Assembly (NCBI RefSeq): GCF_024713945.1
Contig: NC_134677.1
Location: forward strand, 4,405,001-4,469,000
Source: Dermatophagoides farinae
Taxonomy: Eukaryota; Arthropoda; Arachnida; Sarcoptiformes; Pyroglyphidae
Length of the DNA stretch: 64,000 nucleotides
Direction of reading: 5' to 3'
The notes beneath the pieces are model-generated. The model ran no database searches. It was not told the origin of the DNA and saw only the letters and a list, made by a program, of their open reading frames with translations. Position numbers and translations under genes: made by a program. Every line of letters starts with the position of its first letter. The stretch's first letter is position 1. This document shows, piece after piece, positions 7,201 to 61,987 of the stretch.

Positions 7201-10200
7201 ATGATGATTATAATTGACGATAGATCAAACTCGTTTCGAAGTAAATGTTTCAATGTCTGCATTCTTCCAAGATACGGACGCCTACATTCGTGGTTCAGTG
7301 ATGTCCAAGTAAGTATTGTTCGAATTATTGTTGTTCGTTGACCACAATTATGACGGCATAATTCAACTATTTTATCTTTATTTCATATAGTTTTACGAGT
7401 GGTGTGCCAATCATCGGTAATTTGACCATTGTATATACATTGCAATTAGCTTCAACTTCCTATTCATTGTCTTCATCAACCATTTATAATAATAATCGAG
7501 CTAATATTAATTATTTTGATCGACCTGCCATCGAAACGACCGAACGATATGTATGATCTGATGTATGTTGTTTATTTTATTAATTAATGAAATTTTTTCT
7601 ACAATTTGAATAGTTTGATGGATATTATGAATTTCGTTTACCAATGTCAGAAATTATCACACAATTAGCGAAAGGTGCACAGGTCGATGGCGCTATGCTT
7701 ACTGTAACTGCTTATGTTGGTGAACGTTTCCTCAATCTAATCTATTCCGGTTATGCAAAAGCCTATATATTCAATTCTAAAATTCGTCTAAAATTTTTGG
7801 GCCCAAATCCACAAACTTTTAAACCACCAATGCCTTTCAAAGCCTATGCAGTATTGTCACATTCGGATGGATCGCCTATACATCGTGATTATCTTTACAC
7901 CGATCGAATTGAAGTCCATACACGTGTAAATTCAAGAGGAGGAATACTAGGATCCTTCAAAGAAGAAGTGCCAATGTCGAAAAATGAATACGGTCTTTGG
8001 GAAATTAAAGTTAATTTACGAAATCTGCTTAACAATGACATGTTAGCTCTTAAAAATGTTGATTCGATATCATTGCAAGCATTTTTCAAAGATGTTTATG
8101 GTTCAACGGTTAAATCTCCTGAGTTACGCGTTTTCGCTACCTATGCTCCCAATAATCGTTTAATTCAGATATCAACAAGTACAATGAAACCTAGTGTTGG
8201 CCAATATATCATTTTCCATGTACGCACAAATTACTATGTCAACCTGTTCAGTTATTTAGTCATATCAAAGGGAATCATTTTGGTTGCTGGTCGTGAAGAG
8301 ATGAACTCAATGTTAAAAACATTCACATTTACGATTTCATCGGAAATGGCGCCAAGCGCTACAATTATCGTATATGATGTTGCACCTGGCGGAGAAGTGA
8401 TCGCCGATTCATTGACATTCCCTGTTGATGGCATTTCTCGTAACAATTTCACTGTTGCATTGAATAATCGGAAAGATAAAACAGGTGATACGATTGAAGT
8501 GGTGGTTTTTGCACAACCTGGCTCATATATTGGTTTATCAGCATTGGATAAAGATCTTTTTGGTATAAATGCTGACAATCAACTTAGTTACGCACATGTC
8601 CAACAAAAAATGATCAGTTTTGATGATATTCTACCGTTGAATAATGCATCATTAAGCTATAGCTGGTATTCACGTTACGGAATTCTCGACCGATTCTTTT
8701 ATTTCCCATCACCAACATTTGGCATCGATACTAATCAAACATTTGAGGTATATCATTTATAAATGATTCAAAACGAAAATTCTAATGATGGTTTTTTTAT
8801 AATAGCATGCCGGTCTTATTGTATTCACCGATGGCAATCTAGTACGTCGACCAGAAACTTGTAATCGAACTCGTGGATTACTCACCTGTATGGATGGTGG
8901 ATGTTATCATTTTTCGAAAAAATGCGATGGTCGTTCGGATTGTCGTGATGGAAGTGACGAAAGCCTTTGTATGTTTGAATTTTTTTTCTCTTTTTGCGAT
9001 TATATTCGATTTTTTCTCATTAGGTCAAAATAACGACCAATATAATATGGCTCATTTTCGTATGACACGAACGAATCGTTTACAACGTTTATATGACAAT
9101 AGTTGGCTATGGAAAGATGTTTTTATTGGTCCACTCGGCTATCATATATTCAAAGTTCCAGTACCAAACGCTCCAGTTAATTGGATTATATCCGCATTCG
9201 GAATGAGTAAATCACATGGATTCGGTATTCAACGTTCCAAACTGAAGCATTCAAGTGTCCGTCCATTTTATATGAATGTTGAAATGCCTTCGAGTTGTTT
9301 GCTTGGAGAACAGATTGGTATTCGTATCAGTATTTTCAATTATCTTCCATATGAAATTGAAGTGGTCGTTATTCTTGCTCGATCTCCCGATTACAAATTC
9401 GTTCACGTCGAATCACTTGGTCGAGTGCAATCGTATAATCCACGTACATCGTTCGGACAACATCAACATTTGATCATGATTTATCCTAGTCGAACCAAAG
9501 TTGTTTACATGCCCATTGTTGCTACAAGAATCGGTGACATCAATGTTACTGTTATGGCCAAAACACAAGTAGCCAAAGATATTGTTACAAAAACAATTCA
9601 TGTTGAACCGGATGGAATACCACAAATGACACACACATCGGTTGTTCTTGATTTATCACAAGGTGCCTACCTGATAAAATATCTTGAAACGAATGTCACC
9701 GAAAGTCCAATTATACCCTATCGAAAAGAACGACGCTATGTTTTTGGATCAAATCGTGCAAAAGTCACCGTCGTTGGTGATGTTATTGGTCCTGCTTTTC
9801 CAACGATACCTATGAATGCTACCTCTATGCTAAGAAAACCATTCGATGCATCCGAACCGTCAATGTTTAGCTTTGCTGTAAACGTATACACATTGCTTTA
9901 TCTTCGTTACACCGGCCAAAGAAAACCGAACCTCGAGAAAGAAGTTTTCCGATACTTAAACATTGATTATCAACGTCAATTAAGTTACCAGAATTCGGAT
10001 GGTTCATTCCGAGCTTTTCGATGGCATCAAACACCATCAGTATGGATGACTGCATTCTGTGCTCGTATTTTACACCTTTCAACGTTTCAAGAATGGGAAA
10101 ATTTCCTTTACATTGATCCCAAAGTAATACAGAATGCTATCGTTTGGTTGTTGAACCAACAGCAAGCAGATGGCTCATTTGTTGAATACCCGATGCAGAG

Positions 10201-11683
10201 TCCATTAAATCGACGAACCAATATGACTTCAAGCATATCGTTAACTGCTCATGTTTTGATCACATTGGCCGAAGTTCGTGATCTAAGTGGTGAAGTTGAT
10301 TCAAAAGCTACTAGTGCACGAACTTCAGCGCAACGATTTCTTGAAAGAGCTTTACATGTGGTTAAAGATTATGAAGATCCATATGAACTTGCCATTGTAA
10401 CCTATGCCTTAACATTGGTCGAATCAGTCGAAGCTGTTGAAGGTTTTAATCATCTTTACTTACGAATGCGTGAAGTTAGCGGTATGCGTTATTGGGGCAA
10501 AGAACCTGTAGCTCCTATTCGTACACAGGTAGAAAGTAATCGACCATTTATACTGCCACGTCTTCCAAATAGATTTGACTCCTCAAATGTCGCTACAACT
10601 GCTTACGGATTATTAATCCATATCAAGCGTCAAGCATTCATACAGAAAGAAATTGTTGAATGGCTCAATTTCCAACGTTTATATGATTCAGGATGGTCAA
10701 CAACTGAAGACACAATTGTCGCCCTACAAGCATTGATCGATTATTCAAACAAAGATCGTTTACGTGATGTCACCGATATAACTATAACAGTCGAAGCTCC
10801 AACGTCTCATAATTTTTCCTCAATGATACATATAAACGAAGAGAATATCTCGAAAATGCAATCGATCGATATACCAAATGCATTTGGTGCAGTCACAATC
10901 AAAGCTCAAGGATCTGGTGTAGCTATCGTACAATTAAATGTGGAATATTGTGTTGATTGGCCACAATTCCAGATTCAACCACCGATTCGATCATTTGATC
11001 TAGATGTATCCGCTACATTTACTGGGCGTAATAGTTCACATATTACATTTAAATCTTGTCAACGATGGATACATACACGAGAAAGTCTATCATCTGGTAT
11101 GGCCGTTCTAGAAGTAACCGTACCTACCGGCTATTTCATACAACAGCAAGATCTGGATAGAATGGTTCGTTCTAACATTCAGAACAAATTGAAAGAAGCA
11201 CGATATTTCGAACGAAAAGTTGTCTTCTATTTTAATTCTGTAAGTAATCTGAAATTTTTCTAATGAGGCAAGTTCTAATCAAATTTTCTGTTTTCAGCTT
11301 GATACAAGTTTTACTTGCGTTTCATTTACGGTACAACGATGGTATCCAGTTGCAAATCTTACACGTTACATTCCTATCCGTGTTTATGATTATTATGCTC
11401 CAGGTAAATCATTATTAATATTCAAAACATGTTCTTATTTTTTTCTGTCTCTCTCTCTCTTTCTACAGAACGTTTCAATGAAACAATGTTCAGTACACAG
11501 AATTTATATTATCTAAGCGTCTGTCATGTCTGTGGTTCTTATCAATGTCCATATTGTCCAATTTTCAGCTCTTCACCTTATTGTTCATCACCGAATTTGA
11601 TTTTATTATTCATATCCATATTGATGGTAATCATCACAATGTTTTATTCATCATCACCATCATCAAATATTGTCATTATTTAA
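4212..11683 (+). CDS. Mcr: Macroglobulin complement-related protein (TEP6/Mcr-like), thioester-less, with LDLa domain
   Basis: Ten exons with consistent phases: 4212-4576, 6106-6578, 6976-7092, 7224-7308, 7391-7550, 7614-8747, 8806-8968, 9024-11239, 11298-11403, 11469-11683 (1677 residues). Seen: a hydrophobic signal near residues 56-72 (LLCCLLVLIFFLIEG), macroglobulin domains opening with a typical stretch (YFIVASRIVRPGQVYR), MG2/MG3 signatures (TDKPVYMQGQTVRFRA), an LDLa domain at 797-833, an alpha-2-macroglobulin/TED/receptor-binding block from exon 8, and a Cys-rich tail ending in a hydrophobic segment (NLILLFISILMVIITMFY) that could be a membrane anchor or GPI signal. The thioester GCGEQ is replaced by PFDASEP near residue 1106. 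Known: Drosophila Mcr combines an LDLa with a lost thioester and acts at septate junctions and in immune binding. Inferred: a secreted or surface scaffold, not a covalent opsonin. Start: Met 42 (4335) would give a more normal signal peptide than 4212. No poly(A) signal was assigned. CD109-like TEPs are the alternative, but the LDLa and dead thioester favour Mcr. Confidence 0.9.
4577..6105 (+). other. Intron 1 of the Mcr-like gene (1.5 kb)
   Basis: Donor GTAAGT follows CCGAACC, and the acceptor is TTTCTTTTCAG. The phase-2 junction restores a proline in the sequence LPEPTYFIVASR, which supports both sites. The intron is AT-rich and shows no coding or repeat content beyond short homopolymers. 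It separates the signal-peptide exon from the macroglobulin domains. Confidence 0.75.
8860..9025 (+). other. LDL-receptor class A domain of the Mcr-like protein
   Basis: Six cysteines in LDLa spacing (residues 797-833) end with the acidic calcium-binding signature CDGRSDCRDGSDE. The last cysteine is made by splicing T from exon 7 (ends 8968) to GT of exon 8 (starts 9024). The insert lies between the macroglobulin/bait half and the complement-like half of the protein, the placement known for the Drosophila Mcr/TEP6 class. Calcium binding is inferred from the conserved acidic residues. Confidence 0.9.
9839..9859 (+). other. Degenerate thioester site (PFDASEP in place of the GCGEQ region)
   Basis: The flanking context of a thioester domain is present. 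The preceding strand ends in GPAFPTIP and the following helix reads SMFSFAVNVYTLLYL, matching the usual NMxxFxPNxxVLxYL. The Cys and Gln that form the internal thioester are both absent. This shows directly that covalent target attachment by this domain is not possible. The surrounding frame is intact, so this is divergence and not a frameshift. Confidence 0.85.
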
Positions 11684-33301: not shown

Positions 33302-33600
33302 AATAACGACAACATGATAATATATGATGATCAATATTTTGACCATCATTAAAAAACCATTGATAAACGAAGATATATCAAAATGGTATGAATATATTTG
33401 CTACAACAACAAACGATTTGAATGAATATGATTATATAATAATGGCTCATTTTTTTACATAATCATCTTCATCATATTTATCATTGTTAAACATAGTGAA
33501 TCATAATTTTATCATTTTTAAAATTCGGGACATACTTAGCTAGAATTGTACAATTTATAATCCATGTTAAAAGAACTGTGGACCAATTCAAAATATTGAA

Positions 33601-36600
33601 ATGCAATCAAATTTGTTGGGTGCTCAAAAATGTCAACATCGATTGACATTTTCAAATAAATCATCATCATCATCAATGTATGGTCATGTAATTTTATCCG
33701 ATTTTGATGATGCAAACACTGATAGTGGTGATCATGATTTATATGAAAAAAATTCTATTACTTCGGACGATAATATTAGTGATTATAAAAAACGAAAACG
33801 AAGAAGAAAAAAATTAACAAATAAGGAATATTTTAATAATAAAAAATTAATAATTAAATCCAATGACTATCAACATAGTCATTCCGGTCATCTTAATAAT
33901 CAGGATAAAATAAGTGAGATGCAAAACTTGGAAAAAAATTACTCAACAAATGTTAAATTGCCAGAATTTTTGCGACAAACAAATGACGTAAAACTTAATC
34001 AAAATAATAATAGTGACGATGATGTTTTTTTATTCAAATATTTCATGAATCATTTTATGCGATTCATCATTACCATTGTTGCCATTTTTTGTTCTACTGT
34101 AAATAATTTAAAATGGAGAACTATAGTTCTGTTTGTCAAATGCATACAACATACAATAAAATATCAAAGTTTTCAAAAATTTTGTTGGACATGGCATCGT
34201 TTCTCGCCAACATTCAATGGTCAAAAAATAAAAAATTTTACCATAAACAAGATGAATAACATGATTATATTATTGAATCGTCACGTATTCAGATGGAAAA
34301 AGTGCTTTCTGACTTTCACGCCTCCTTTCATCATTAGTGACCATCATTGTCGAAAAAATTTTGCTGCCATTTTAAATTTTCGTATTTTGTTTACATTTTT
34401 GGTTATCATTCTTTGTTTATTACCGCCATTGCCGTTTAAAACAACCAGAATGACGACAAAGACAACAATGATGATGACGATTCTGGTACATACATATAAC
34501 TATGGAATTTCATCAGTTTTTACAGAAAAAATAAATTATCAAAAGCCATCAGAAGCTGTTACTGAAATCATTTCCATGACAACATTCAATTATGATGATG
34601 TTAATTTCGATGAAAGTGATAATTTTGTCAGTAAACACAATAATGATCGTCATCATCAATCATCATCGCTTAAGTCGATTACCATCGGTCCGTCATTTAT
34701 TTATGATGATTATCATCATGATTACCATCATCAACAACGGCTTCTACATCATTCCAAATTAACTAAACAACGACAACAACAGCCAAATTTTATCGACACG
34801 ACAATAACCAAATTAATCAATAATGATAACGATCCTAATGATGATCAAAATGATATTGATAATCATTTTTTTTGGAATAAGATTGATCAAAATCCAATCA
34901 AACGTTCACAAATTCATGATAATCATCCACATCATAATTATCATAAAATTAAAAAACATCAGACACTTTTCAACATGACCACAATGATTAATACTGAGAA
35001 TGAGGATAAAAAATTTCTCGAAACAATAAAAAATTTCGGCCTAATCAATAATAATGAACCAATACCAAGTCCAATTCCATTCAGTAATGTGTTGGTCAGT
35101 ATAAATTCACGTGATCAATTTAGCGGAAATTCAATTGATAGTTCAGAAGTTGATTTTAAACAAAATTTTCCTATATTATCATCATCATCATCATCATCAT
35201 CATTGTTTGAATCATTTCAAAGTAATGAAGATGATGAATCAGTAACAAAACAATGGAAAAAACATAGTAATTTATTTGCTGCTGATGGCAGTAATATATC
35301 CGGTGAGAGCAGCAGTAGTAGTAGTAGTGAAGAGATTGAATTTCAACATTCATTAGTGGCAAAAGATCATTTGTTCGATATTATCAACAATAAAGAAATT
35401 GATCTACCAAATCAGAATTCAAAATCTCATTTCTATGTTAATGATAGTGATGAATGGAATATTCATCATTTTATAAAAAATGAAGATAATCATTATTATA
35501 ATGATGCATCATTGATGAAAAGTAATCGTCCACCACGTTATGTATTATCAGGTCATCATCCAAATATAAATATAACATGGCCAGTGAAAAAAGTTGCCGA
35601 AGTTCATGGCAATATAACATTAGGTGGCCTGATGATGGTACATGAACGTGAAGATCAAAAAATTTGTGGACCAATCATGCCACAAGGTGGTATACAAGCA
35701 TTAGAAGCTATGTTACATACAATTGATTATGTCAATTCCCAATCAAATATTCTACCTGGTATTACATTGGGTGCCTACATACTTGATGATTGCGACAAAG
35801 ATACCTATGGTCTTGAACAATCCATCGATTTTATTAAAGGTAAGTAGTACTATCCTCTTTTTGCATCAATATACTGAATTTTAATCATTATAACATCATG
35901 AAACACATCCATAATTTTCATATTTTTCTACAAAAGCAGAGTGTTTATCATAAAAACATTCATTCTTGTTGTTTTGCTACCAAAAAAGAATATGTAATTT
36001 TTTCTTTCACGAAAAATGATTAAACATGTGAAAAATGATTTTTTCTTTGTAGATTTGTGCTAAAAAAAACCTTTTTACAAGTTCTATACATCAAAACAAA
36101 GACAAGACAGACTATTCGTTTTATATTAACTTATGTATTTGCTCCACATGATTTGATATATGACGTTCATTCTTATACTATCATTGGAATTGTTCAATTC
36201 CATTACATGCATTGTTCATTGATGATGATTTTGGACATTATTTACTTATGTATAGCCAAACAAGGGTGACAAATAAAGAGAAGCAGCAATTTACTTTTAA
36301 CATATTAAAAAAAAATTTATAAATATTATACTCGGATATTTTTCTCTTGGTTGCTGAGCATTGATCAAATACCAAGAAGAATAAAAATAAAGTGACATGA
36401 AGTATGAGAGAATAGAGAAAAAAATATCAATTCATCTATATCAAATAAATATTTTGTCAGTTGATAAATACCGTTTTTTTTCATTCAATTTCCACCATTT
36501 ACAAAAACGATGTTCAGAGTTTCGGATCCATCAATATTATTGGGGTAATTTGATCAACAGAAACGAAAATCACGAAAACTTATACATACACATACACACA

Positions 36601-39600
36601 CACATATACTGATGTATACATGAAAACAAATGTGAAAAATGTGTTCTTCCATTCTATTTGATTTCTGTATAACATTGATTGTGAGTAATTGATCATTTTT
36701 GGTCCTATTCTCTTTTTATTTTTGCCCGTTTAAACAATATTGATGATCATTTGTTAAAATGTGTTTTGTGTAATTCTCAACATATATGTTGCGATGTACA
36801 TACGAAACTAATAACAACCATGACAAAATAAAAAGCCTAAGCAAATCTTTAGTTGTATGATCAACACATACACATTGAAAGCTGGCCACATTGACCACAA
36901 AGTTTCATTAGATCTGATCAATTATCCTCATCATCATCATCATCAGAATCTGTGGTAATGATAGTATTGGTAATTAAAGAATTCCATTTACTATATATAG
37001 ATGAAACAAAACAAAGACAAAAGAAAAACGTCAAACGTCAACATGAAACATACGTTTTGTCCATTTTTTCTTAATTCCATTATCTAATTTTTTTTCTGCT
37101 AAGAACATAAAGATTTCTATCTTTAATTTGAGAGATTCGTCATGTTCACCATCAGGATATTGTTCATAATCATTATCTGATTGTATGCGTGTCTCCATGA
37201 GTTTATGTACAAACGTAAAAGTAGAAAAAAGTATTTTTTATTTTGAAAATGGATTCATACTTGAACAAACATCAACTGCCATCTTGTTGACCCATTGGGA
37301 TTCGAGTTTTTCTTTCTTTTCAGAATTTTTTTTCTATGAAACAATCCCAAAAACAGTTTGATTCTATTTCAACCATCTGCCTACTCTTTTAAGGTCTGAT
37401 GGCCGGTCATCAGAATAATTTAATGTTCTAAAGCTTTTCAATTTTTCAGTTTTTTTTTCTACTTTAAATAAACATCATTCAGTTGTCTACTTTTTATCTT
37501 CTTCGTCCTCATCAAATTGGCCATGTCTAGCTAGAATATATTCATTTGGGGATCAGGTTTTTCACTACCTCTACTCAATGGACATATTTAAATGGATATG
37601 GAATTTATTTAAACTTGCAAAAAAAAATTCACTGAGAATTCATAATGATTCTAGTCATGATGATAGTAGTAATAATAGTACTATTTAGGCCACAAAAAAG
37701 TCCATTAAAATAACTTTTCAATTTCAATATATTTTAATTAATATAATTCAAACATTTTGCATGCTTTTAAATATGATAAATTGACAGTAATTGAATTCCT
37801 GTTATGCTACTAATGCTGCCACCTTGTATTGATTGCATGCATAATGACAATTTAAAACATTGATATATTTTCATTTAGCTCACAATAAACGATTAGAAAA
37901 AGGTGATTATTTTGCTTTTTGGTTGCTAAAAATGTAATGAAAAAAAAATATTCGAAAATTGTTCACAAATACTGATAACTGCTAATCGTAATATCTTATC
38001 TTATATTTTAATTATAATTGTAATCATCATAAATTATAAGATAACTTATTACGGTTGGCGGTTATTTTGTTGCTGCTGCTGCTGCCACTACCATTACTAC
38101 TGATTATGATAATGACAAAACATTTTTATTTTTTTTTTATTTATAATAAATGCATCTTGATTACAATGCTGACCATTTGCCATTTGTTTTATTCTTTTTT
38201 TTCACCTTAGTCTATTCATGTGTTTATACGATGAAGCACGTATGAATTAGTGATGCTTTTTGATGATCTTATGTCCATTGAAATTAAATTCAGAGCTTAT
38301 CGAGTTCAAAGAATTTCAAGAATTAATAAGAAACACAACCTCAAAAACTGATGAACGAATTCATTATTATTGAATACATTGTTTTTCCTTGGTTTTAATC
38401 ATTGTGTTTTTTTTCATTTTTTTCTCGTTTCATTCAACGCAAATTAATTCACGTTCCTCTCTCCCTCTTTTCGTATCTTGTTTGATTATATTATATAATC
38501 AAATTAACACTACCAATAACATCAAACAACCGCACATAAGATGATCAAACAAATTCATGATATTAGCATATTTTCTCCGAATATATAAGTAGAATTATCG
38601 ATGAGAATTATTATGCTGGAAGAAAATTGAAAAAAATAAAGCAACTTTCAGCAATAACAATTGAGAATTTTAGCAACGATAAATTTGAGAGAGATAGAAA
38701 AATTTGCTGACTACGATAGTATTGTATTGATGATTTTGTTTAGAAAACCAATGATCCAATTTCGGCCAACGGAATTTTTCGGTTTTTTCTTCTTTTTATG
38801 TTTGTTGAATTTGTTCATTCATGGAAGTAGTAAAAATAGAAATAATTCAACATCGAAAGAATCTTACAACAACATCACCATTATCATAGTAATGGTACAT
38901 AATTAAATCGTTTTTGTATTGTGTCTATGAGAAACATTGTTTTTTTTTATTATTCACACACATACACACACCCATAAATTCAAAGTAGAATAAATTAATC
39001 AATATATAATCGATGAATGCCTTAATTATTGAATATTATTCGACTGTTTAATTCTTGTTATTTTTTGCATTTCGATTTGCAGATTGGTAATAATTAAATT
39101 ATTCTTGCACTTGCTTTATTTACATTCATGAGTCATTATCATCTATTTATTGAAATAATTGTTCTTGTTTCTTTCATTCAAAAGCTTGATAAATTAATCA
39201 ATTTTAGATAAAAGCAAATTGTTGACTTTATTTATATAGCATGATTATTATCATTACGATGAAGATGATGATGATGATGTTGATGATGATAATATTGATT
39301 AAAAAAAATGATAAAACCAAGGCAAACAATTTACTAGCAAATTAGATAGACAGTTATTAAACATGAACTTACCCATTCCCACCAAAATTAATTCCAACAA
39401 TGAATCAATTTGAATATCGTCAGATATTAATAAATATTCATAAATTATTATTTCTATATATTTTATATGGAAAAACACTTCCACTTGAATCGTCACCATA
39501 CAGGCTTCAACAGTAAAAATTTTATGATTATATAACTATTATTATCTTATTATGAGATGATAATGACATTCTTGTCTTTTATTTACATTATCATGAATTT

Positions 39601-42600
39601 TGCCCAAATTATGAACATTTTTCTAAAGGCTTTTCATCTACTTTTCTGGATAGGGAATATATATAAAAAAAATTTGTCTTATCTCTGCCTTCTTTATACT
39701 TCATTAATATCAATGAATCACTATAATTATGATAAATTTTTCGTTTATTCATACAAAATTAACGAATCTCAAGAAGAATATGAAATCCAACCAAGTATTT
39801 TTCAATAGAGTAATAGTTTCAAAATGATACCCTGAAACATTGTTACGTGATAATTTGATTTATTGATGAAAATCTTATCGGTAAATTTTGATTCTTTCCT
39901 GAACTTGAATTTTTTCTTTATTTTTTTTAAAGGTAATTACATTTGATTAAAAATTTTTACCATCTTCGTTTTCCATTCAGACATGATTGATTTCATTTAT
40001 CCAAGACCGTTTATTGAATTGGATTTGATTCAGAGCCAAAGGATCCAATGTTTTTGATAATGCAATTGTTGATTACAATAATGATAGTCAGCAAGTTTGT
40101 CTGGAATAGTGTGTGTATGAAATTGCAAATACTTCAGTATAATGTAAAAGTCGATAGTCATCATCATTATCATCATTGAATGCTTAACGATCAAAATAAT
40201 AAAAAAGAAAAAGAAGAAAGTGAGAGAATGCATGAAAGAAATTCGGACTTAATTCAGTTTGATTTTATTAAACACGCACATTATCAACGAATTTCAAGCA
40301 GAAAAAATATAGTCAATTCATTCAGCTTTCATTTAAACAATTACTGACTGTTAATGACAATTTGTTGTGTTGAAAATTTTATTCTTTATTCTATAAGATA
40401 TCATTCAAATTCTTTTCTCGGTTACACACACACACACACACAAAATTCTTGAAATTCTATCAATTTATTCTTCTTGTAAAAATTTATAATGGGAATGAAT
40501 CAAGATTTTTTTTTATAGTTCAATTTTCAAAACGAGTTTTTACTTTTTTTTGTGTATTTTTTTTTTGTTTTAAATTTTAACTTTTGAATTACAAATAATC
40601 ATTATCATTATCATTGGTTTGATATGATGGTAGTTGTTGGGCCGAACGGAAAAACGAATGAAAAAAATCTAATTCAATTTGAAATGGTATTTTGTTTCTT
40701 CTTTCTATACATCATTACCATTGTTTCGACTTTTTTTCATTTGTTCTCACAAATACACACACACACACACATTATTCTTAATGTGTGTCCATTCGAGTGC
40801 AAATTCGTTTTTTCAAGTTTCATTTGGCCATCTCGTATCATCATATTCTTCACGTTTTTAGTGCTTAGTTTTTAGTTCTCCATGTTTTTTTTATAGAATT
40901 CAATTTGTAAGAAATTATAGAAAAAAAAAACAAAGAAAACAACAAAGTTTTCAAGCCGTTTTTATAACATAATTTTCTTTTTTGTCATTGATCTTATTCG
41001 ATGTGCTTCATGTGAATGTAATACAATGTAGAAAAATCAATACCAATTTATATTATAGTTGATTGATAGATTTTTTTTGTATGATGATGGCTTCATGTTC
41101 ATGTGTTTTCCGTTTTTTTTTTGTTTCTCTCTAAAATCAAAAGTAAAACGAAAAAGTTTTCCTCATTTCTCATTTGACCATTCGTTGATGAGAAATCATT
41201 TTTCATTAACAAATTGACTATTGTCGATTTTTTCTTTTAGTATGATAAATCTTGAAATAAACAAGAATTGTAAAGCGGATTTATTACCACAACAACAAGA
41301 AAAAAAAACTTGGCAAAAATCTGTTAACTTTATAAAATTTGGAAATCAATATCAGATTAATTATTTGTTAATTTGTTTCAGGTTGCACACACACACATAC
41401 AAACAGTCAATATGAATGATGTGTAGATTTTTTTGCTCAAATGATTATCATTAGTTTTTCAAAGAAAAAATTACTTTCAAACTCATTTAATGCATTGATC
41501 TTAAATCAGAATGCTTGACACTTGGTGAAGATGAGATAAGAATTGTGAATTTTGGTCGTTTTAAAATAATATATTGATCTTGAACAAGTATTTTCAGAGC
41601 TTGTTAATATTGTCAATCATTTATGAATGAATGTTCAAAAAAAAAGAACAATTTCTAAACGGATTAAATGCCGAAAATACTATGATGACAGAAGGCTAGA
41701 TGATTATCAATTAATAATAGTAGGAAGCAAAAAGTGTGGTGATTTAGAATATAATATATTTTTCGCAACTAATGCCTTCCATGATCATAGACATTTTTGG
41801 CATATAATTTATTTTCCTTTATTTCACTCTTCAAAAAAAAGTTTTTTTTCCATTTTATTCTCTTGTGCCTATAGGCATAGTAATTATACATGAACTCACG
41901 TTTTGACAAAATGTGTTACTAAGAAAGGAAAGAAAAGTTTTTCCGATTCTCCTAATAATAATAATAATAATAATAATAGTGATGAAAATGAGAAGAGTAA
42001 AAAGATCGTTTTTCTCTATTTCCATCCACCATTACATCATCATGATGATGATAATGAGATGTTATTGAACATCCGTTCTATCCATTATGTTACCAATAAA
42101 ATCAAATGAGATTTCCTTTTTGAGGAAATGAAAAAATAAACTTTAAATGTCTCAACAATGATAATCAAAACAATAGTGATAATGATTATGAATAAACTAG
42201 ACTTTTATAATTCATATTTATCGGGTTCTTCAAAATGATCAAAATAATAAAAGTGACAAAACAAAACTTTTTACTTACATTGTTCTCACATTGGCATTTC
42301 CTGATTGTTATATTTTGATGTTTTTCTATTTCATTAATTCCATTTTATAAAATTTCCGTTTATACACACATCCATCATTTTAAGGTTCCATCACCAATCT
42401 GGATGATAGTTATAGCTGTTCAGATGGTTCAACACGTTCACAAAAACAAAAACGTATTTGGGGAGTATTGGGAGCTGCATCAAGTGCAACATCAATTCAA
42501 GTGGCCAATTTACTACGATTGTTTCGTATACCACAAGTGAGTGAAATCATTTAAATTGGGGTTATTTTTTGCCATATTTATTAATAATAAGCACATTTAA

Positions 42601-45600
42601 AATGCTCTTTCATTCATTCAATCAAAATTTCGTATTTTTTATTATGATTTTTTCATTTCATTTTTTTTTATTATTTTTTTTCTGTTTGAAATAAAAATCT
42701 AGGTGAGCTTCTTTTCAACTAGCTCAGAACTGAGCAATAAACAACGTTTTGAATATTTTCTACGTACAGTGCCAAATGATAAAAGCCAAGCAATGGTTAT
42801 CGTTGAAATAGTCAAACGTCTCAACTGGTCATATGTGTCAATTATTTATGAAGAATCTATTTATGGAATAAGGGTAAGTGTATTTATAGATTCATAAATA
42901 TGTATGTGTGCAACAGAAACAGAACCAAATGACTACTACTAAGCTTTAATGTTGTTAACATCTTGTATTGCATTATTTTTTTTTGTTGATTTATGTCTTG
43001 TATTTAAACTTCTATTATTTATCGAATAACATGGAATGAAACAAACCAAACTGTATTCCTTGTGAAAGTTTTAAAAGCTGTTTTTTCTCCACTCATGAAG
43101 ATTTTATAATATGATTTCCACGATAGGCGACAAAGAATTAGTTTCCAGAAAAAAAAACTAGACTGCTAATTTTTCTGAATATACCAAAAGTCAAATGAAA
43201 CCTTATATTGATCAATCGAATTATGTTGTTTTGTTTCTTTTTTCTATATTATTTTGGATCGAATCTATCTGTACAATAATAATGAACCTTAATATGTTAG
43301 CGTATGTAAGTGTTAAAAAAAAAAGAATTTTCATTTTCAAGCTGTTGCTGTTGCTGCTAAGAATAGAATGAGAAAAAAAAGTTCTTTCTATTTATTGTAA
43401 GTAGGTTTATGCTTACTCAGCAACATCACAGCACATCAAAATTGATCACAATTCAATAATCAAATGATAATCAACGTTTATTTTTCACATTGAAATAATA
43501 TGTAAAGAAAAGAATGAGAAAAAATTTTATCAAAAAACGGATATTGATGTCAATAGAGATAAATAAATGAGAAAATAATTGTTGTCGTTCTTTGTCTTTG
43601 GAAGTGAAATTAATTTTTTTTTTCATTTATGCAATGGCAATTTATTTTTCTATATCTTATGTTGTCATAAATTTTTTTGGATATTTTAATTTCTTAGAAA
43701 TTTCCATATGAAGTCGACTTGAATTTTTTTTTGAATGCAGAACGGCAATAAAAAATCCAATTTTTCATTTTTCTCCAAAAAAATTCATGATGCTAATTTT
43801 AATCTCCATTTTTTTTTTTTTTTGGTTATCATGATTTTTATGAAGGCATTCAACGATCTCGAAGAGCTTCTTGAACAAACAGACATTTGTATTGCCATCA
43901 AAGAACGTTTGACCAAAGATTCTGGTATCGCAGCCAATAGTTCTTATGACAACATTGTTCGTAAATTGGGGACTAAACCTAATTCAAAAGGTGAGTAAAT
44001 TTTTTCTGATGTTATGTTCACTGTATTAGTTGTATTGTGTGAATTGATTGAATTTTTTCCAGCTTACATATCTATTTCTGTTTTCATTAGAATTTTGATT
44101 CATTCTAAAATCAATATTGGAAAAATCTAACTACATTATCCTTGTATTCTTGTCTAGTGACTGAATAAATTAATGAATAATGGGAAAAAACTTTCCAAAC
44201 AAATACAAAGATAGAAAGATTTAAAATGTTAAAAAAATATTTGATAAAAAACGGATTTTTTTCATAGCCACAAATTATTATAACAATGTGTATATGAAAT
44301 GTTGAAATTTTTTTTGTTGTTGTATATCCTTATTGCCATTTCTGACAAAGTGGAAAAAATATGTTTTTCGTCAATACTACAAAACAAGCTATGGATATTT
44401 TCCCATAGAAATATTATCGATAATCAAGAATTTTTCGGAATTCATTTTCTTTAATCTCAAAGTGATTGTGTGTATGTGTGTGTGTGTGTTTGTATGTTGA
44501 TGTTCATTATGTGAGCACATTTCCTGATTTCATTTCGTAACAAGTGCATGGGTTCCATTCTCTTTTGTTGTTTATAATTTTTTACTCACTTTCTCATTCT
44601 TTTTCTCTTTTCTCTATTTTTAGCTTTATTTTTGTTAATAATAATGTTTTTTCCGTTTGTCGATTGATGGAAAACTTCTGTTTTCCGTTTTGTTTTTCCG
44701 TTTGTTCATATTTCATATTTGTTATTTGTGTATCTGTGTAAAAACCATGCATAGTATTTTTGTCATTGATGATAACCTGATCAACCGTTTATAGATGAAA
44801 ATTTTGATTTTTTGTTGATGAGAATGATTATAGAATAGAGATATGTGTTAAAGTGTATGAAATAAAATAAGACTAAAATGATTCTTCGATCGGACAAACT
44901 AACAATATTTCAATATTTATTATTCATTGGAAATTTTCTTCTTTTTTTTGCTGACAAATCGATAAATTGGCCATCTTTTTTAGGAATAAAATGATAAAAA
45001 ATAGCTGATATACCTATTTTGAATCAAATTATTCTGTTATGTCTTGTTTCAATAAACTTGGTCAAGTTTTTTTCTTCTATTGATGATAATAAGACAGACA
45101 ACAAGCCATATATGTGTTTTTATGTGCATGAAAAATTGGTCCAAACTTCTCAGAAAAGAGTTTGGATCAAAAAAAAAAAAAAGTTTGTCCAAAAGAACAA
45201 CCTATACCGATTGGTTAGATGTCATTGATGATGATGATAATGATTATCGTTCATTGTTCATCAAGTTGCCCGAGGAACAAAACTGTTTTTTTTGCTTCAC
45301 CTCTTCAATGGTTTGTTTTCATCTGTTTTTTTTTTGTTGTTGCATTTGGCCTTTTGAAAATGTCGCCTGAAGAGCTAGAATGGAAAAACTTTTTTTTTTG
45401 TTCTTTGTATTTATTATCATTTGACATGATGATATACAATACATACACAGACAAAAAAAAATCATCTTATTCACGATAATTAACTTCAATGATAGTCCAA
45501 ATGATGACAAATACAAAAATAAAATTCCCTAGACTAAGTGCAAAATTTTGTCATCATTTCATTTTTTTTTTTTTTTGATTGTTTGTAGTGTTCTATTTTG

Positions 45601-48600
45601 ATAATTTGGTAACACAATATGACGAGGAAACAAAAAAAAAAATGTCATTCTGTATAATGAAAGAATTATAATTTTTTTGACTTTTATGTTTTTTACGTAA
45701 TTTGATATGTTGGAATTTATAAACAAAGTTAATTTTTTTATCATAAATTTGATTGATTTTTAGGAATTTGAAATTATCCATTCATTTATTACAACAACTT
45801 ATAATTTGATTAATTGATGTTGATAATAAGAATTAATAGCCAACCTCCTAATGATGTACAAGCAGTAAATATCCATTAGATGGTGATAATATTCTTTATT
45901 AGTGTTTCCTTCATACTTGTCTATGAGTGATAAATGGCATATAAAATCAACTTATGGTGACATGATAAACCAAGGAGCTAAAAAACTGATTAATATTTAA
46001 TTGTTATGGGGTCATTTTTCATTCCTTTCATTCCATAATATTATTGCAATATATTTGATTTGGTTCGTTCATTTTTATTTTATTGTTTATTTTTCCATTC
46101 AACCATAAAGGAGTGATTGTATTTGGATCTGATCAAGAGGTGGCAATGCTAATGCAAGCAGTTAAACGTAACAATGCTACCGGTCAATTCTATTGGATCG
46201 GTTCGGATGGTTGGAGTGCAAGAAAATTAGTATACGATGGTAATGAACATCAAGTTGAAGGAACAATTTCCGTACAACCAATGGCAAGTCCTGTTCCCGG
46301 TTTTTATGATTATTTTTTCTCATTAACACCACAAAATAATCATCGTAATCCATGGTTCATTGAATATTGGGAACATACATTTAAATGTAAATGGCCAAAT
46401 AGTGATTATACTCCATATAATTTGGAATTTGAAAAGTAAGATATTTTTTTACAATTATTATCTATTTTTTTAAATCAAAATTGCATGCTTGTCACTAGTT
46501 TTAATTAGTTTCATATCAAAGTGAAATACTTATTGTCATTGTTTAATTTTTTTCAAAAGAATTTTTCATGACAATTTTTTTTAGAAAAAAAAATGTAGAA
46601 AATTAACTCAGTTTCTTTTTTTGTTCATTTAACAAAAAAATGATGAATACAATCAAATTATCAAAACTTACATCCATATTTATTTTCCATTTACCTATTT
46701 TCAATATGAATATCATCATTTGATTGAACATTTGTAATAGAAATTGTACGGGTAATGAACGAACAATGTCAGCTGACAAAGAAAGCGATGATGATGTTGA
46801 AATGCAATTACAATTTGTTAGTGATGCTGTACTTTCATTCGCTTATGCTATACAATCAATGCAGCGAGAATTATGTTCCGGTACACGCGGTGTTTGTCCA
46901 CGAATGTTGGCCGCTGATGGTAGCCAATTATTGCAACATTTACGTGCTGTTCAATTCAAAGGTGAGTGAAAAGAAACCATTTTTTTTTTGTTTAATCAAT
47001 CAAACTAAATCCCTACACATTATTATTATGCTAATTATTATTGAAACAGACTATTGTACACTATTTTTCGTATAAGTTTTTTTATCAAGTTCAATTTTTT
47101 AAATTTTACTTGTCCAAAATTCACTATTTTTTAGACCTTGAAAAATGATCGATAAATTTTTTTTTTTGGTATACAAATGTAAATGAGATTTATTTTTCAA
47201 AAAAATTCTTGTAAACATACAAGTAACACGATGGCCATAATGATATTTTCGTTTTACATAATAACGATCTATTGTTGATAGTCCAAAGAAAAAATTGGCT
47301 CATTGACATAAATCTGAGCAATATCTGGTAAAAATCGATACAAGATCGATATAAAAGTGAAACAACAGAGTGGGAGATTTATTTTATCGGCATGTTTGTT
47401 CTTATTGTAACATGTCATACATGTCGTTATTTTCAAACAAATAGGATTGGATCGTTAACAATGACATTAAGATGCTTAAGCTATTTACATCTATCTATCT
47501 ATCATCGTCATCATTCTCCACAAGGTTTCAAGTATCCATGCTTTTGTTTTAGTGAAAAAATTTGCCTCATTATTTGACGAATAAATGAAAATTTGGAAAT
47601 ATGAAAAAAGTATAAATTTCAATCACAATATTTGACTTATTCTATCGTTTTTTTTGAAATTGTCTAAATTGATTTCCCTTTTTGATGACAGAAAAAAATC
47701 ATCCAATTTATTGCGATGTGTATCAAATCATTACAGACACAAAGAATTGTATTCAATATATTCAAAAAGTTCTTTTTGTAACTTGATGATCGGTGAAAAA
47801 AAAATCAAAGTTAAAGTGAAAACTTCCTCTATTACTTTTCATATCAAAAAAAATTTGCTAAAAAGGAAATAATGAAAAAAAAGTGAAAATCAAACTATTC
47901 TCTTGTCATCATGATTTATATTGCCGGATATGATTATTTATTGTTGAACATTATTATCATAATGTAAATATTAGTTTCATTCGTTTAAGCGGCAGTAAAA
48001 ACGCAATGCTCATCATCATCGGGTATATGAAAATGATGATGATATTGAAATTTGATATGAAATCTATAGAATAAAAATTTACTTTTCGATTTCTTGAGAA
48101 AAAAAAACACTTCAAACAGAAGAACAAATTCTATTTGTTCATATTCACGAATTTTGTTTCCTTTCTTATTGTTTCGTTAGTGTTGTTCTTTTGATGGCTC
48201 TTTTCAATGTTATATTTCAATTTCAATATACTTTATATAAAACGCTTAAAATTGAATCACATCACAATATATCGTTTTGTTCTTGGCAACCACATCTGAG
48301 ATTCGATCGATTTTATAGTGCAATAGAAAAACTTCGAAACAAAAACACATTCACCCACTGAAGATAGATGTATGAATGTTAATCTAGGATTAAATCTTCA
48401 GGTTTTTATTCCATTTTTGTTGTTGTTCAATTGTTTTCTTTCCATTATAAATGCTGAAGAGTTTTTCAACCACAACTTGCATTCGCATAAATTTTATTTC
48501 ATTTTTTTTTCTTCGAATCATCTCTTCAATTTTTTTTGTTGTTGTAAATTTCAAAAAATTTTTGAAATTCTGTAATTTTAACCACTATACATTGGTTAGT

Positions 48601-50363: not shown

Positions 50364-53300
50364 AAACATTTTGGCCATTGTCAAAACAAATTTCAATCCA
50401 TTCTTATTTCCTTCATCGACACTAATCATCATCATCATCATCATCATCATAGTCGAATCTATCAAGTGTATGTATTGTTTGAGAATTTACCATCCATAAA
50501 AACATTCTTTCCAACGATCACAAGTCACGTTCTATTTGATTAGATGTGAAAGTGAGTGTGTGCTTCTTTTCTCTTCAATTTTTTAATGGCCTGGTGTGTA
50601 CATGCTATATGGTATTTTTTCCCTAAACTCAGAATCTGGTCTTCTAGTATCATTATCTGGTTATTTATTTGTTTGATCACGGTTAAAAACATACACACAC
50701 ACACGCAGAAATACATAAAAATCCCCCTTATGATCCAAAATTTGTAGATCTATACTCTTTATCTGGAAGTTTTCTCATGGTACCATTATTTTTTTTCACT
50801 TCATTATTATTATTATTACTAGTAGCATTATTTTCAATCTTTTGTATGATTTTTTTTTTTTTTTTTTTGATATTGAATCCAAGATTTTCATTGAATAAAG
50901 TCAAATAGCCAAATATTGAATCACACTTTTAGTCATTTTTGTAGTCACATGGCTTTGTTTTTTTGTGGGCTTATTCATATTTCCCTTCACATCTAACAAA
51001 AAAAAAAAAAAAAAATTCAAGAACATTATTGATTTATAGATCAATAATAATTTTTTTATTGTTCGATTGCCTTCACTTATCAAATATAGGTTATTGTTTT
51101 TTCTTTGTATGGTCGAATCTTTGTTTTGATAAAAAAAAATTATTTTAATGTATTCATGTTGTTGCCCTTGTTCTGGTTAGTTTTTGATTTTGTTCTAAAA
51201 TCAAAAACTATAAGCAATAATAATCATAATTTCATGGATGACTTGAACAGACCATTTTTGATGATGATGGCGATGATGATAATGTTATTGTCATACAGAA
51301 GTTATTCGTTTCCATTAATGAATGAAATTTGCATTGAAAAAAAAAATTTGATTTGCTAATATTATGAGAATCAAATAACATCTTTTTTTTTACTATACTT
51401 TCATTGTTTTAACTTCAAACTGAATAATAAAAATATATAGGAATGACTGGTCATGAATTTCATTTTGCTGAAAATGGTGATGGTCCTGGCCGTTATCGTA
51501 TTATTCATTTTAAACAAGTTGATAAGAATAAATTCGATTGGATACAAGTGGGCGAATATGTTGATGGCAATCTAAATATAAATTTAAGTAAAGTACAATT
51601 TCGTCTATCGGATCCTGATCCCCCAATATCTGTTTGTAGTCAACCATGCGACAAAGGTCAAGCAAAATCATTTCTTGAAGGAGAAAAATGCTGTTTTCAT
51701 TGTATCAATTGCACAAAATATCAAATATTAGTATCTGAAACACAATGTATCGATTGTCCATCCGGTTTCTTACCCGATTCCGAACAAATCGAATGTATTG
51801 CCATACCGGGTAAGTTTTTCTTCTTTTTATATTTTGATTTCTTTTTTCATTTTATATTTTTACATTTTATTTATTATTATATTCATTTTTTCTTCATTTA
51901 CATTTTGATGGATGACATCTAATTTGACAACAAAAACCAATTTGTTCAATTATATGCAGAGGAATATATGCGACCCGATAGTTCATGGTCTGTTGGAGCC
52001 TTAGTGTTCGCATGTATCGGCATTGTATTCACAATATTTGTCATTATAATTTTTATCCGTTATAATGATACACCTGTTGTTCGTGCATCTGGGCGTGAAT
52101 TATGTTATGTGCTACTTATCGGAATTCTTATTTGTTATTCTATGACATTATTCTTGGTACAAAAACCAACCATTTTTATTTGTGGTGCACAAAAGGCTGG
52201 CATCGGTCTTTGTTTTTCTGTCGTATATTCTGCCATATTGACCAAAACGAATCGTATTTCCCGTATATTCAAGGCCGGAAAACGTTCAGCACGTCGCCCT
52301 TCATTTATTAGTCCTAAATCACAATTATTAATCTGTGGTGGTTTCATTATGATTCAGTGTTTTATCATTGCAATTTGGTTTGCATTTTCCCCACCAAAAG
52401 TGATTTATTATCATCCAACACGAGAGGACAATAAACTCATCTGTCAAGCATCCATCAATGCTGGCTATTTTGTTGCATTCATGTACCCGATATTTTTAAT
52501 TGGTTCGTATTGATCATTTTTATACTATTTATCATTCATATTCTTTATAAAAACTATGAAAAATAAAACATAAGTAATGCATTAACACTAAGCTAATAAG
52601 AATATAACAAGCAAACAAATAAAATAATAACATTCCTATTATTATTACATTGCACTAGGCCGATTTATTTTTTTCTTTCAATTCATTTTTTTTAGGAATT
52701 ACAGAATTGGTTTTTGAGTTGGAAATATTGATCCTTATAATTGAGTCACGACAAAGATAGAAAAAAATTTCTATTTAGCCGATTTAATTGTTTTTTTTTG
52801 TGCAATTTCATATTTCTCTTTCACATATTATAAGGGTTCAGATATTATTTGTTTTTTATTGATGTATTTTTGGTCTCTTTCCATTACTTGACGCATGTAT
52901 ATTGGCAGGATTTATGTAGACGACTTATAAAAAAAAAAAATCTTGTCACTACTACTAATCTAAAACAAACAGTAATCATTCATCTATTCATTCACCTATT
53001 GAAGCTATTGAAGCTTCAAAAAAAAAGAAAAAACACCGTAAATCATAAAAAAAAGAATTGACATCAAAAGTAATGACGATTCTTTAGTGCAAATATTTCA
53101 TTTCAAAAGATTGTGTAAGTAGGTTTTCTTGTCAATTTTAAATTTCGTTTTCATCAATAAATGTTATTTCCCTATATTTGCTTGATCATCGATGTTGATA
53201 AAATTCTTGCATCAGGAATTTATTGAATGTGTAAACAAACCATTGAAGATCAAACTTAAAATACAAACAAGTTTTTACATTTTTTTCTCTGTCTTTAATT

Positions 53301-59300: not shown

Positions 59301-61987
59301 ACTTGGTCCTCTTGAATCTTTTGAATGACATTGGTTGAAATTCATCTATTTTTGCAGAAAAAACTTTTTCTTGTTGTACTTTCTTTCATATAAAAAATAG
59401 TGAACAGCTCATAACAACAGATAAAATCCATCATGGACTGTTTAGATAATTTTGTTTTCAAATCCAACTATCCTTAACTTCATCATTACATTCGATTCTT
59501 CTTTTTTCCTTTTTTTTGATGAAATAGAAATAAATAGAAACATAGCTGGACAGTTTTTGTTTCAGAAAAGTTTATGATACATGTTCTTTTCTTGACTGGA
59601 CATATATTTATTTTTTCACCAAACAATTATTGTAGTTTGTAGTAATGGCATCATTGCACATCATTTCTAAATAATATTCTGTTCTTGGAAAAAAAACAAA
59701 CGAAACAAATTGTCATGTTCTTATAACAATCATTGGTTTCTCCTTTAAATCACCGCATTCTGTTATGTATTTTATATTGATTTTCCAATTCATTTTCATT
59801 CATACTTTCATATTTCAATTTTTATTCTTCATAACATAACATGAAATTATTCAGATTGAAATAAAACCTGGAAAAAAATTTTTTTTTTTCATGTCAAAAC
59901 ATTGATTTTCATTTTTTTCTTTATATCTCTGTGAATTCATTATTCCATCTTTGTTTTCTAAGTGTGTTTTTTTTGTGTGTCTGTGTATTTCATTATTTAT
60001 ATCAAAATTTATGTGTTTTCAGTTTTTGTTGTTTTTTTTCATTTTTTCTTGTTATTCAAATTCAATTTATTTTATGATAAATAATGGGATGATGATGATG
60101 GTGATCAGCAGGATATTTTTTTTTTTTTTTTTTTTGAAAAATCTGCATGAATTGAAAATTTTCATCCCACTTTTATCATACTCATATATTTCAATCATAT
60201 AATTCCATTGAATTGAATATATTATTGCTGTGTCGTCAAAAAAAAAAAAAAAAAAATTTTGCAGACACTTTACCATTATCGTCACAAATTATGATCAATT
60301 GTTCTGAATTGTAATTGTATTGGCTATATGGCTATAAATATTGATGATATGAAATCTTATTTATTTAGCAACACACACGCACAAAAATTTTCATGTCAAA
60401 ATGATTTTTGTTACATGTTAACGCAGCCAATATCCATCCAAATTGTTTCATAGAATGATGTTGATAAATGTATATTCTTTATATTGGGAAATTCACGATG
60501 TTGAAAATATTCAACAATCATCACATCACTTGATCACAATTGATAATGTTTTCATTATGAATTTTTCATAATGAAGATGACAAAAATGAAAATGAAATTG
60601 AATGAATTCAAAATAAATGATCGTTTAGTATGAAATGAAAAAAAAATTGATATTTAGAAAAAAAAATGTAGAAAATTTCAATCAACAACTTTGTTGATGT
60701 GCAAAAAAAGTAAAGTATACTGTTATTTTGTTTTTCGCCCTTCTTTTTCTTCTTCTTCTCATCATTCCAAAACATTAGGAATTTTGTTTATTTTTTTTTG
60801 AATTACTTTTTATTCTTATTGAAAAATAAATTTTTCCATTTTTTCTTGTATATTCTATTTGATAATATAGTGGTCTGTACTGTTTACGCTGTGATAACAC
60901 GTAATATACCAGAAGCATTCAATGAATCAAAATTCATTGGTTTCACCATGTATACAACATGTATTATATGGCTTGCATTTGTGCCAATATATTTTACATC
61001 ATCACAAAGTAATCATATAGCGCTCAATTTAACAACATTATCTGTTTCAATATCACTTAGTGCAACGGTTACATTATTGTGCCTATTTTCACCAAAATTA
61101 TATATAATCCTTTTACATCCGGAAAAGAATATTCGTCAATCGGTTACAATGCCTCAGCATAAGTATTCAACAACAATACATCATCATCATAATCAACAGC
61201 AACAACAATCTAATCAAAAAACTGTAAGCATGACACCAACAGCACCACCATCATCATCATCATCAAATACAATAACGGCAGCAAAACCAACAATACAATC
61301 GGATCCATTATCAACAACATTTAATGTTGGCGGTACTGGTGGTGGACAAAATGCCGTACTTAAAATGAAAAGATTCAACATTCAAAATGATAATAGCAAC
61401 AATATTGTTGAACAACAACAGCCAACAATTAATCAAGTTGATTCATCCACACAATCGGATGGTAAGTTTTTTATTATATAACTCATTATTGTTTTAGTAA
61501 AGAATCCTAGATCACATTTTTTTTCGAATATTTAATTGAAAGATTTTTAAATGATTCTGATCGAAAATTATTGGCTAAAATATTTCGATTGATTATCTTA
61601 ATTTATCACATTTGTCTGATTAATAATGTGTTTATGTGTATATTTTAAAATGTTGATCACACCATCATCATTGACTTTTTTCCATATGAATTTATGTAAT
61701 TTTTTTTTATTTTCTCTTCTGTTTTTCATATAGCATTCATTCATAGTCTATTTAATATTCTGTGTGTGTGTATGTTTGAGAATGAATGCATGTTCTAATC
61801 AAACGATATATGGAACAAGAATATCAAAAAAAACTAATTACAATTAATGCACACACACACACACATTCACTCACAAACAAAAGCAATTGAGCCTTGAGAT
61901 ACACGTAAACACATATAATTTTGTTTAGATTTGGAAGTTGGCTGTCAGAATCTGGCTGATCAAAATACAAACATACACATACACTGA
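33601..61987 (+). CDS. mGluR: Metabotropic glutamate receptor-like class C GPCR, X/mangetout type
   Basis: Ten exons: 33601-35839, 42385-42536, 42703-42873, 43846-43990, 46111-46435, 46741-46961, 51441-51809, 51960-52502, 60871-61461, 61929-61987 (1604 residues). The start follows an in-frame TAA at 33568. Order: a low-complexity N-terminal region with a hydrophobic stretch at 260-278; a Venus-flytrap ligand domain from about 670 ([44 protein letters not shown]); the Cys-rich NCD3G domain around 1120-1207; seven membrane helices in exons 8 and 9 ([27 protein letters not shown]); a Gln/Ser/Thr-rich tail ending [15 protein letters not shown]. Compared with mGluR1, the alpha-amino-acid contacts S165, T188, D208, Y236 and D318 are kept (S780, T803, D823, Y851, D935), but Y74, R78 and K409 become G696, A700 and Q958. 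Known: insect X receptors show this pattern and do not respond to glutamate. Inferred: a plasma-membrane neuronal receptor for another amino-acid-like ligand. Odd: the long N-terminus and the weak exon 8 donor (GTTCGT). Confidence 0.92.
40424..40443. repeat. CA dinucleotide repeat
   Basis: A perfect CA run in receptor intron 1. Confidence 0.85.
41953..41978. repeat. TAA trinucleotide repeat
   Basis: A perfect TAA run of about eight units in receptor intron 1, near its 3' end. Confidence 0.85.
42874..46110 (+). other. Introns 3 and 4 of the receptor, with exon 4 between them
   Basis: Intron 3 is 42874-43845 and intron 4 is 43991-46110. The small exon 4 between them is secured by homology ([20 protein letters not shown]) and phase. 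Both introns are AT-rich. Intron 4 has a GT repeat near 44467-44488. No other features were found. Confidence 0.65.
48954..49152. mobile_element. Tigger/pogo-like MITE, copy 1 (199 bp)
   Basis: Terminal inverted repeats CAGTAATACCCCGCTTAACG and CGTTAAGCGGGGTATTGCTG are flanked by TA on both sides (48952-48953 and 49153-49154), the target duplication of Tc1/mariner/pogo elements. Sub-terminal motifs (GTTACGTTCCAAAAA, GCGTTAAGCGAAAC) resemble the known Tigger-type ends. There is no transposase. GC content is higher than in the host intron. The assignment rests on termini and TSD, both directly visible. Confidence 0.8.
49765..49781. repeat. GT dinucleotide repeat
   Basis: A perfect GT run in receptor intron 6. 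Confidence 0.8.
50333..50363. repeat. TC dinucleotide repeat
   Basis: A TC run with one interruption (TG near its 3' end) in receptor intron 6. A GAGA-type tract on the opposite strand, but too deep in an intron to call regulatory. Confidence 0.85.
50425..50450. repeat. ATC trinucleotide repeat
   Basis: A perfect ATC run in receptor intron 6. Confidence 0.85.
53886..53918. repeat. Interstitial TTAGG telomere-type repeat with inverted junction
   Basis: GGTTAGGTT (53886-53894) is followed directly by AACCTAACCTAACCTAACC and one more AACC unit block (53895-53918). This gives about five units of the arthropod telomere repeat TTAGG on the minus strand, meeting two units in the opposite orientation at a GTTAAC centre. 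It lies inside receptor intron 8. Such arrays arise by repair of double-strand breaks or from telomere-derived insertions. Confidence 0.75.
55991..56112. mobile_element. Tigger/pogo-like MITE, copy 2 (122 bp, internally deleted)
   Basis: It starts with the same 16 bases as copy 1 (CAGTAATACCCCGCTT) and ends with CAAGGTATTACTG, again flanked by TA (55989-55990, 56113-56114). Shared internal blocks include GGTCCAAAAAT and CGTTATATCGAA. It lacks about 80 bases of the copy 1 interior and has more mutations, so it is older or a different subfamily member. Confidence 0.75.

Follow-up and report, generated by a model that had tools for sequence, protein, structure and literature searches.

In the Drosophila X receptor DmXR, also called mangetout (mtt), the residues contacting the amino-acid part of the ligand are described as conserved and those contacting the glutamate gamma-carboxylate as not conserved; glutamate does not activate it, and L-canavanine was its ligand in HEK cells (PMC2695807). 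Homologs of DmXR were stated in 2009 (PMC2695807) and again in 2024 (PMC10815649) to be known from insects alone; a crustacean receptor named Mangetout is listed in PMC8256442, and the main text of a paper on crab G protein-coupled receptors (GPCRs) contains no mention of Mangetout (PMC6341585). Here, we analyzed a 64,000-nt stretch of the genome of the mite Dermatophagoides farinae (NC_134677.1, positions 4,405,001–4,469,000; hereafter “the window”), which contains a receptor gene on the + strand (window 33571–61481). Judged from its sequence, the gene product is probably a member of the metabotropic glutamate receptor (mGluR) subfamily of the X type (DmXR/mangetout-like), in which the clamp for the amino-acid part of the ligand is kept and the grip on the gamma-carboxylate is lost. 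A preliminary description of this DNA had likened the pocket to that of the insect X receptors, in agreement with the published account of DmXR (PMC2695807). What it stated of DmXR, the lack of glutamate activation and the link to canavanine, agrees with that account, but the canavanine role in the fly is disputed in print: according to PMC3646046, Lee and colleagues saw unimpaired avoidance in the absence of DmXR, and canavanine has been assigned to gustatory receptors in a paper whose main text makes no mention of DmX (PMC4660205).

Ligand pocket of the mite receptor

The spliced product was placed in a MAFFT alignment of nine rows, including rat mGluR1, and residues were numbered according to the structure 1EWK (1EWK chain position + 32), to which the rat mGluR1 query was identical over 480 residues. 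Six glutamate receptors were compared, namely mite mGluRA, a mite group I receptor, mGluR1 (extracellular domain, ECD), mGluR3, mGluR5, and mGluR7, with the glutamate binding of the two mite paralogs assumed from their sequences; a further mite receptor, designated “X2,” is described below. As the preliminary description had claimed, the five contacts of the alpha-amino and alpha-carboxyl groups, S165 (42483–42485), T188 (42718–42720), D208 (42778–42780), Y236 (42862–42864), and D318 (46206–46208), are all intact in the window receptor, and X2 also keeps 5/5. In contrast, R78, present in 6/6 glutamate receptors, is Ala in the window receptor (35698–35700), again as had been described, and Gln in X2. 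K409, likewise present in all six, is Gln in the window receptor (46805–46807) and Ser in X2. In other words, the window receptor lacks the two positively charged side-chain contacts that mark the glutamate-activated groups I–III. The preliminary description had reached the same conclusion for K409 from the wrong residue: its Q958 is residue 968 of the open reading frame (ORF), lies in TISVQP, and aligns by hand count with mGluR1 K341, whereas the true partner, ORF residue 1043, is encoded in exon 6, beyond the end (46320) of the span that it had considered, and is also Gln. Its other residue numbers count from the Met at 33601 and are 10 lower than those of the ORF.

Further substitutions line the distal pocket. 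In lobe 1 (35677–35700), R71 is replaced by Met and Y74 by Gly (35686–35688), and W110 is replaced by Asp (35794–35796) in both the window receptor and X2. The changes at Y74 and W110, previously taken as lost glutamate contacts, are real substitutions but not losses of a conserved contact: Y74 is Arg in mGluR3 and mite mGluRA and Asn in mGluR7, and W110 is Ser in all three. Because both positions vary among glutamate receptors, R78 and K409 alone carry the pocket argument. Two changes were absent from the preliminary description: S186 is Phe in the window receptor (42712–42714) and Ala in mGluR3 and mGluR7, and G293 is Asp (46131–46133), as it also is in mGluR7. The six glutamate receptors agree at 97 extracellular columns; of these, 82 are unchanged in the window receptor and 15 are lost, and X2 loses 22. 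If the losses were placed at random, the probability that R78 and K409 were lost and the five alpha contacts kept would be approximately 0.011 for the window receptor and 0.015 for X2; these figures are indicative, as the seven positions were drawn from the preliminary list and from the known structure of mGluR1.

An ordinary glutamate receptor was rejected on the absence of R78 and K409. An alignment artefact was also rejected: GIQALEAM is the block around R78, and QFVSDAV fixes the position of K409, with length varying just before it; furthermore, phmmer pairs the same Gln with the Lys of mGluR7, and two paralogs retain both residues. A three-residue shortening after Y236 was dismissed because the next Cys follows at a spacing of 19, the same value that 7/8 other rows show.

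The mGluR family of the mite and the relationship to X2

A profile search for the NCD3G domain over the genome contigs (62.4 Mb, 22 contigs), with only the best candidates scored, placed the domain at four loci: the window gene, C5:178766, C5:790310, where the match was below the family cut-off, and C3:3337507. The spliced protein of C5:178766 (L035) scored 875 bits in phmmer against mGluR3 and 793 against mGluR8, identifying it as mite mGluRA (group II), and that of C5:790310 (L037/L036) scored 927 bits against mGluR5 and 651 against mGluR3, making it a group I type. The mite thus retains a group I (mGluR1/5-like) receptor on contig C5:779501–795000; for Drosophila, only DmGluRA and DmXR were counted as mGluR-like receptors in the available text of PMC3261222. 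The fourth locus is X2 (L033/L034; contig C3:3334501–3349500, minus strand, outside the window), in which Y74 is Glu and the other changes are as given above. The window receptor scored 719 bits against mGluR7, 708 against mGluR8, 706 against mGluR4, 697 against mGluR3, 677 against mGluR2, 671 against mGluR6, 669 against mGluR5, 652 against mGluR1, and 375 against CaSR; by sequence score, it is mGluR-like without a clear group preference. X2 scored 646 bits against mGluR2, 615 against mGluR3, 601 against mGluR7, and 578 against mGluR5. Scans of genome contigs, viral contigs, and plasmids, in which insect relatives were sought via contaminating contigs, yielded no animal relative. The genome of the window has three matches to Blo-t-5, a mite-allergen family (best E-value 2.6e−53), which marks its host as a mite.

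In trees of few class C sequences, with four from one genome, long branches, and insect mX sequences outside the set, the window receptor and X2 formed a pair with a support of 97/97 in the full alignment (802 columns) and 97/95 in the ECD. The pair persisted without the 15 pocket positions and their neighbors (96/96), and when CaSR was additionally omitted (97/95). Outside the pocket, 11 ECD columns were exclusive to the pair, compared with 16 for the group I pair, 4 for the next pairs, and 2 for the window receptor with mite mGluRA. Among the four mite genes, an intron at column 279, phase 1, occurs only in the window receptor and X2, and the X2 junction was also recovered with human guides; introns of both genes at column 100 differ in phase (1 and 0) and were not counted. 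When the window receptor was moved without X2, which broke the pair, the approximately unbiased (AU) test rejected its placement in group II (p-AU 0.006, full and ECD) and with mGluR7 (0.015). The best explanation is a putative X subfamily with two members in the mite, which also has two receptors of the ordinary glutamate type.

Weighing of the alternatives

Several observations count against an X subfamily of this kind. The sequences are few, four are from one genome, and the branches are long. In the seven-transmembrane (7TM) domain, the pair has only three exclusive columns, equal to four other pairs, and the 7TM-only tree does not contain the pair, although it does not reject it (p-AU 0.207); it joins the window receptor to mite mGluRA (68/83), its closest 7TM relative (53.8% identity), and X2 to mGluR3 (55/44). 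An intron at 167/0 is common to the window receptor and mGluRA only, one at 512/1 is common to both and X2, and the top phmmer score of X2 is that for mGluR2. The position of the intact pair is also loose. In the full alignment, the best tree puts it with group I (72/83), with p-AU values of 0.084 for group II, 0.204 for mGluR7, and 0.291 for a place outside the three groups; after removal of the pocket columns, the support for group I was 75/82 and the corresponding values were 0.113, 0.267, and 0.255. When X2 was omitted, neither group II (p-AU 0.148) nor mGluR7 (0.278) was rejected. Clear clustering with groups I–III, which the preliminary description had regarded as incompatible with its reading, was thus not seen: phmmer preferred no group clearly, and the grouping with group I was weak, with other placements not rejected.

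The 7TM pairing and the two introns would fit descent of the mite X receptors from the mGluRA (group II) line, with independent loss of the gamma-carboxylate site and a likeness to DmXR due to convergence. Group II was not rejected for the intact pair and was weakly recovered for it in the 7TM tree (60/76), and the planarian receptor GSMD001419 indicates that pockets of this type can also appear in other lineages (PMC3261222). Nevertheless, we consider this origin unlikely, given the exclusive ECD columns (11 with X2 against 2 with mGluRA) and the absence of a group II preference in phmmer. The rejection of the window receptor alone in group II adds little here and speaks more for the X pair than against group II, because the test also breaks the pair.

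Two further explanations concern function. The receptor could be a non-binding partner subunit, or could function only when joined to a different subunit, such as X2, in a heterodimer. Two X-type receptors occur in one genome, the dimer cysteine is kept, and heterodimers are common among class C receptors; however, a non-binding subunit would be free to lose its ligand contacts, and all five alpha-group contacts are kept in both X-type receptors. We consider this explanation improbable. Least probable of all, and by our estimate very much so, is a receptor that still senses glutamate through other residues holding the gamma-carboxylate, such as the kept R323 (46221–46223). Although the retention of 82/97 invariant columns would suit such a receptor, both R78 and K409, found in all six glutamate receptors, are lost, the net charge of the pocket is negative, and DmXR, for which the same pattern is described, was reported to give no glutamate response (PMC2695807). 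We therefore favor an X-type receptor with an altered side-chain pocket.

Pocket charge, ligand, and G-protein coupling

Over ten sites taken to line the pocket near the end of the ligand side chain (71, 74, 78, 110, 164, 186, 292, 293, 323, and 409; a list chosen on background knowledge, in which the columns are not independent), the net charge was +3 or +4 in 6/6 glutamate receptors. CaSR has +2 at these sites, the window receptor −1, and X2 −2. Among 20,000 random ten-column sets drawn from 420 gap-free extracellular columns, nine matched the shift of the window receptor, none that of X2, and none both. The charge shift suggests, but does not prove, an altered pocket, and also suggests a ligand with a basic or neutral side chain. 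L-Canavanine is an arginine analogue. It was an in vitro ligand of DmXR with an EC50 of 0.5 mM, and arginine had no effect on DmXR (PMC2695807); the inactivity of arginine therefore calls for caution against a simple charge rule.

Five intracellular loop columns distinguished the Gq-type rows (mGluR5 and mite group I) from the Gi/o-type rows (mGluR3, mGluR7, and mite mGluRA). The window receptor has the Gi/o-type state in 5/5 columns, and X2 has it in 4/5, with neither type at one. DmXR itself is reported to have the conserved Gi/o-type loop residues as well and to couple best via Gqo5 (PMC3646046).

In the proposed mechanism, the flytrap receptor, probably a disulphide-linked dimer, would still hold an amino acid by its alpha-amino and alpha-carboxyl groups but would no longer grip the gamma-carboxylate of glutamate. 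The ligand would be an amino acid, or a derivative of one, whose side chain is neutral or basic; its binding would close the flytrap and lead to Gi/o signalling. Glutamate is probably not the natural agonist, and the best reading is an X-type receptor of the mite whose ligand would be an amino acid other than glutamate, perhaps a basic one. More tentatively, and with rather more doubt than confidence, we suggest that X-type receptors did not originate in insects but belong to a branch of the mGluRs as old as the arthropods, or older, represented in the mite by two paralogs whose distal pockets changed from positive to negative, and that they sense a basic, arginine-like internal signal, canavanine sensing in the fly being a side effect. 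The title of a 2004 paper on the insect X receptor, listed among the references of PMC3261222, refers to an endogenous, non-glutamate ligand. The same pocket occurring twice in a mite that presumably does not encounter the legume toxin canavanine would favor a signal from within the animal, and would narrow the search for the ligand to amino-acid-like molecules that fit an acidic pocket.

Gene structure and neighboring gene

The spliced model has nine coding exons with a single open frame, and 8/8 introns are GT-AG; the span in the preliminary description (35650–46320) covered only part of this gene. A pseudogene was ruled out by the absence of stops and frame breaks (0 each) across the nine exons. 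The product matches the Pfam domains ANF_receptor, NCD3G, and 7tm_3, each above the cut-off, which is the mGluR-type class C architecture also characteristic of DmXR/mtt. Exon 1 (33571–35839) encodes a long low-complexity N-terminal stretch followed by the initial part of the Venus-flytrap domain. Approximately 670 mostly low-complexity residues of open frame precede the flytrap domain (666 over 33571–35569, where Pfam gave no match); ORF residues 301–670 are rich in S, N, I, D, and H, and two signal-like hydrophobic stretches lie near residues 163–177 and 264–290. Several Met codons from 33601 onward are candidates for the start, and part of this frame may be untranslated.

Exon 2 (42385–42536) carries S165, exon 3 (42703–42873) carries T188, D208, Y236, and the S186 substitution, exon 4 (43846–43990) encodes part of flytrap lobe 2, exon 5 (46111–46435) carries D318, R323, and the G293 substitution, and exon 6 (46741–46961) carries the true K409 position. 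Exon 7 (51441–51809) encodes the last part of the flytrap domain together with NCD3G, the domain with nine cysteines, exon 8 (51960–52502; weak donor GTTCGT) the bulk of the 7tm_3 domain with loops i1 and i2, and exon 9 (60871–61481) the final transmembrane helices, loop i3, the C-terminal tail, and the stop. The receptor has Cys at 23/23 columns where at least 5/9 rows have Cys, including the column of mGluR1 C140, which we take to form the inter-subunit disulphide.

Elsewhere in the window, an alpha-2-macroglobulin-family gene (6080–11263, + strand) has the MG2, bait region, A2M, TED, and receptor domains of Pfam. It reads RKPFDASEPSM at the presumed thioester site of its TED region, where we take the GCGEQ thioester motif to be usual, and its product may be a thioester-less, MCR-like protein.

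Comparison with known systems

All five class C receptors in a mite GPCR survey were called mGluRs (PMC12193088), several scabies mite proteins were named metabotropic glutamate or sweet-taste receptor-like (PMC4930577), and a tick foreleg survey gave class C candidates with no mX named in its available text (PMC5322884). In the literature searched, within the text available, no receptor with an X-type pocket was described from a mite or a tick. The label “metabotropic glutamate receptor” on genes of this kind can mislead as to the ligand. The present analysis adds X2, the right location of K409, the charge of the pocket, and the Gi/o type of the loops.

Among the described systems, CaSR also lacks R78 and K409, and the X pair has its states at two extracellular positions (334 V and 500 Y), a thin likeness that would suit an early branch; however, it scored only 375 bits with the window receptor, compared with 652–719 for the mGluRs. 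The planarian GSMD001419 is described as having an equal pocket logic but as having diverged significantly from GABA-B receptors and from mGluRs alike (PMC3261222); the pocket pattern alone is therefore not diagnostic. Mite mGluRA and mGluR3 represent group II, which resembles the window receptor in its Gi/o-type loops and, for mite mGluRA, in the closest 7TM domain and two common introns, but both retain R78 and K409. DmXR/mangetout, compared by its published description, has the mGluR architecture, the kept amino-acid contacts, the lost gamma-carboxylate contacts, and the Gi/o-type loops in common with the window receptor. For example, DmXR Thr-176, described as conserved in all mGluRs, would correspond to the kept mGluR1 T188, and the two gamma-carboxylate residues of all mGluRs that are changed in DmXR (PMC2695807) are presumably the R78 and K409 replaced here by Ala and Gln. 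The window receptor differs from DmXR in coming from a mite, in having X2 as a paralog with the same pocket, and in the long low-complexity open frame in front of its flytrap domain.

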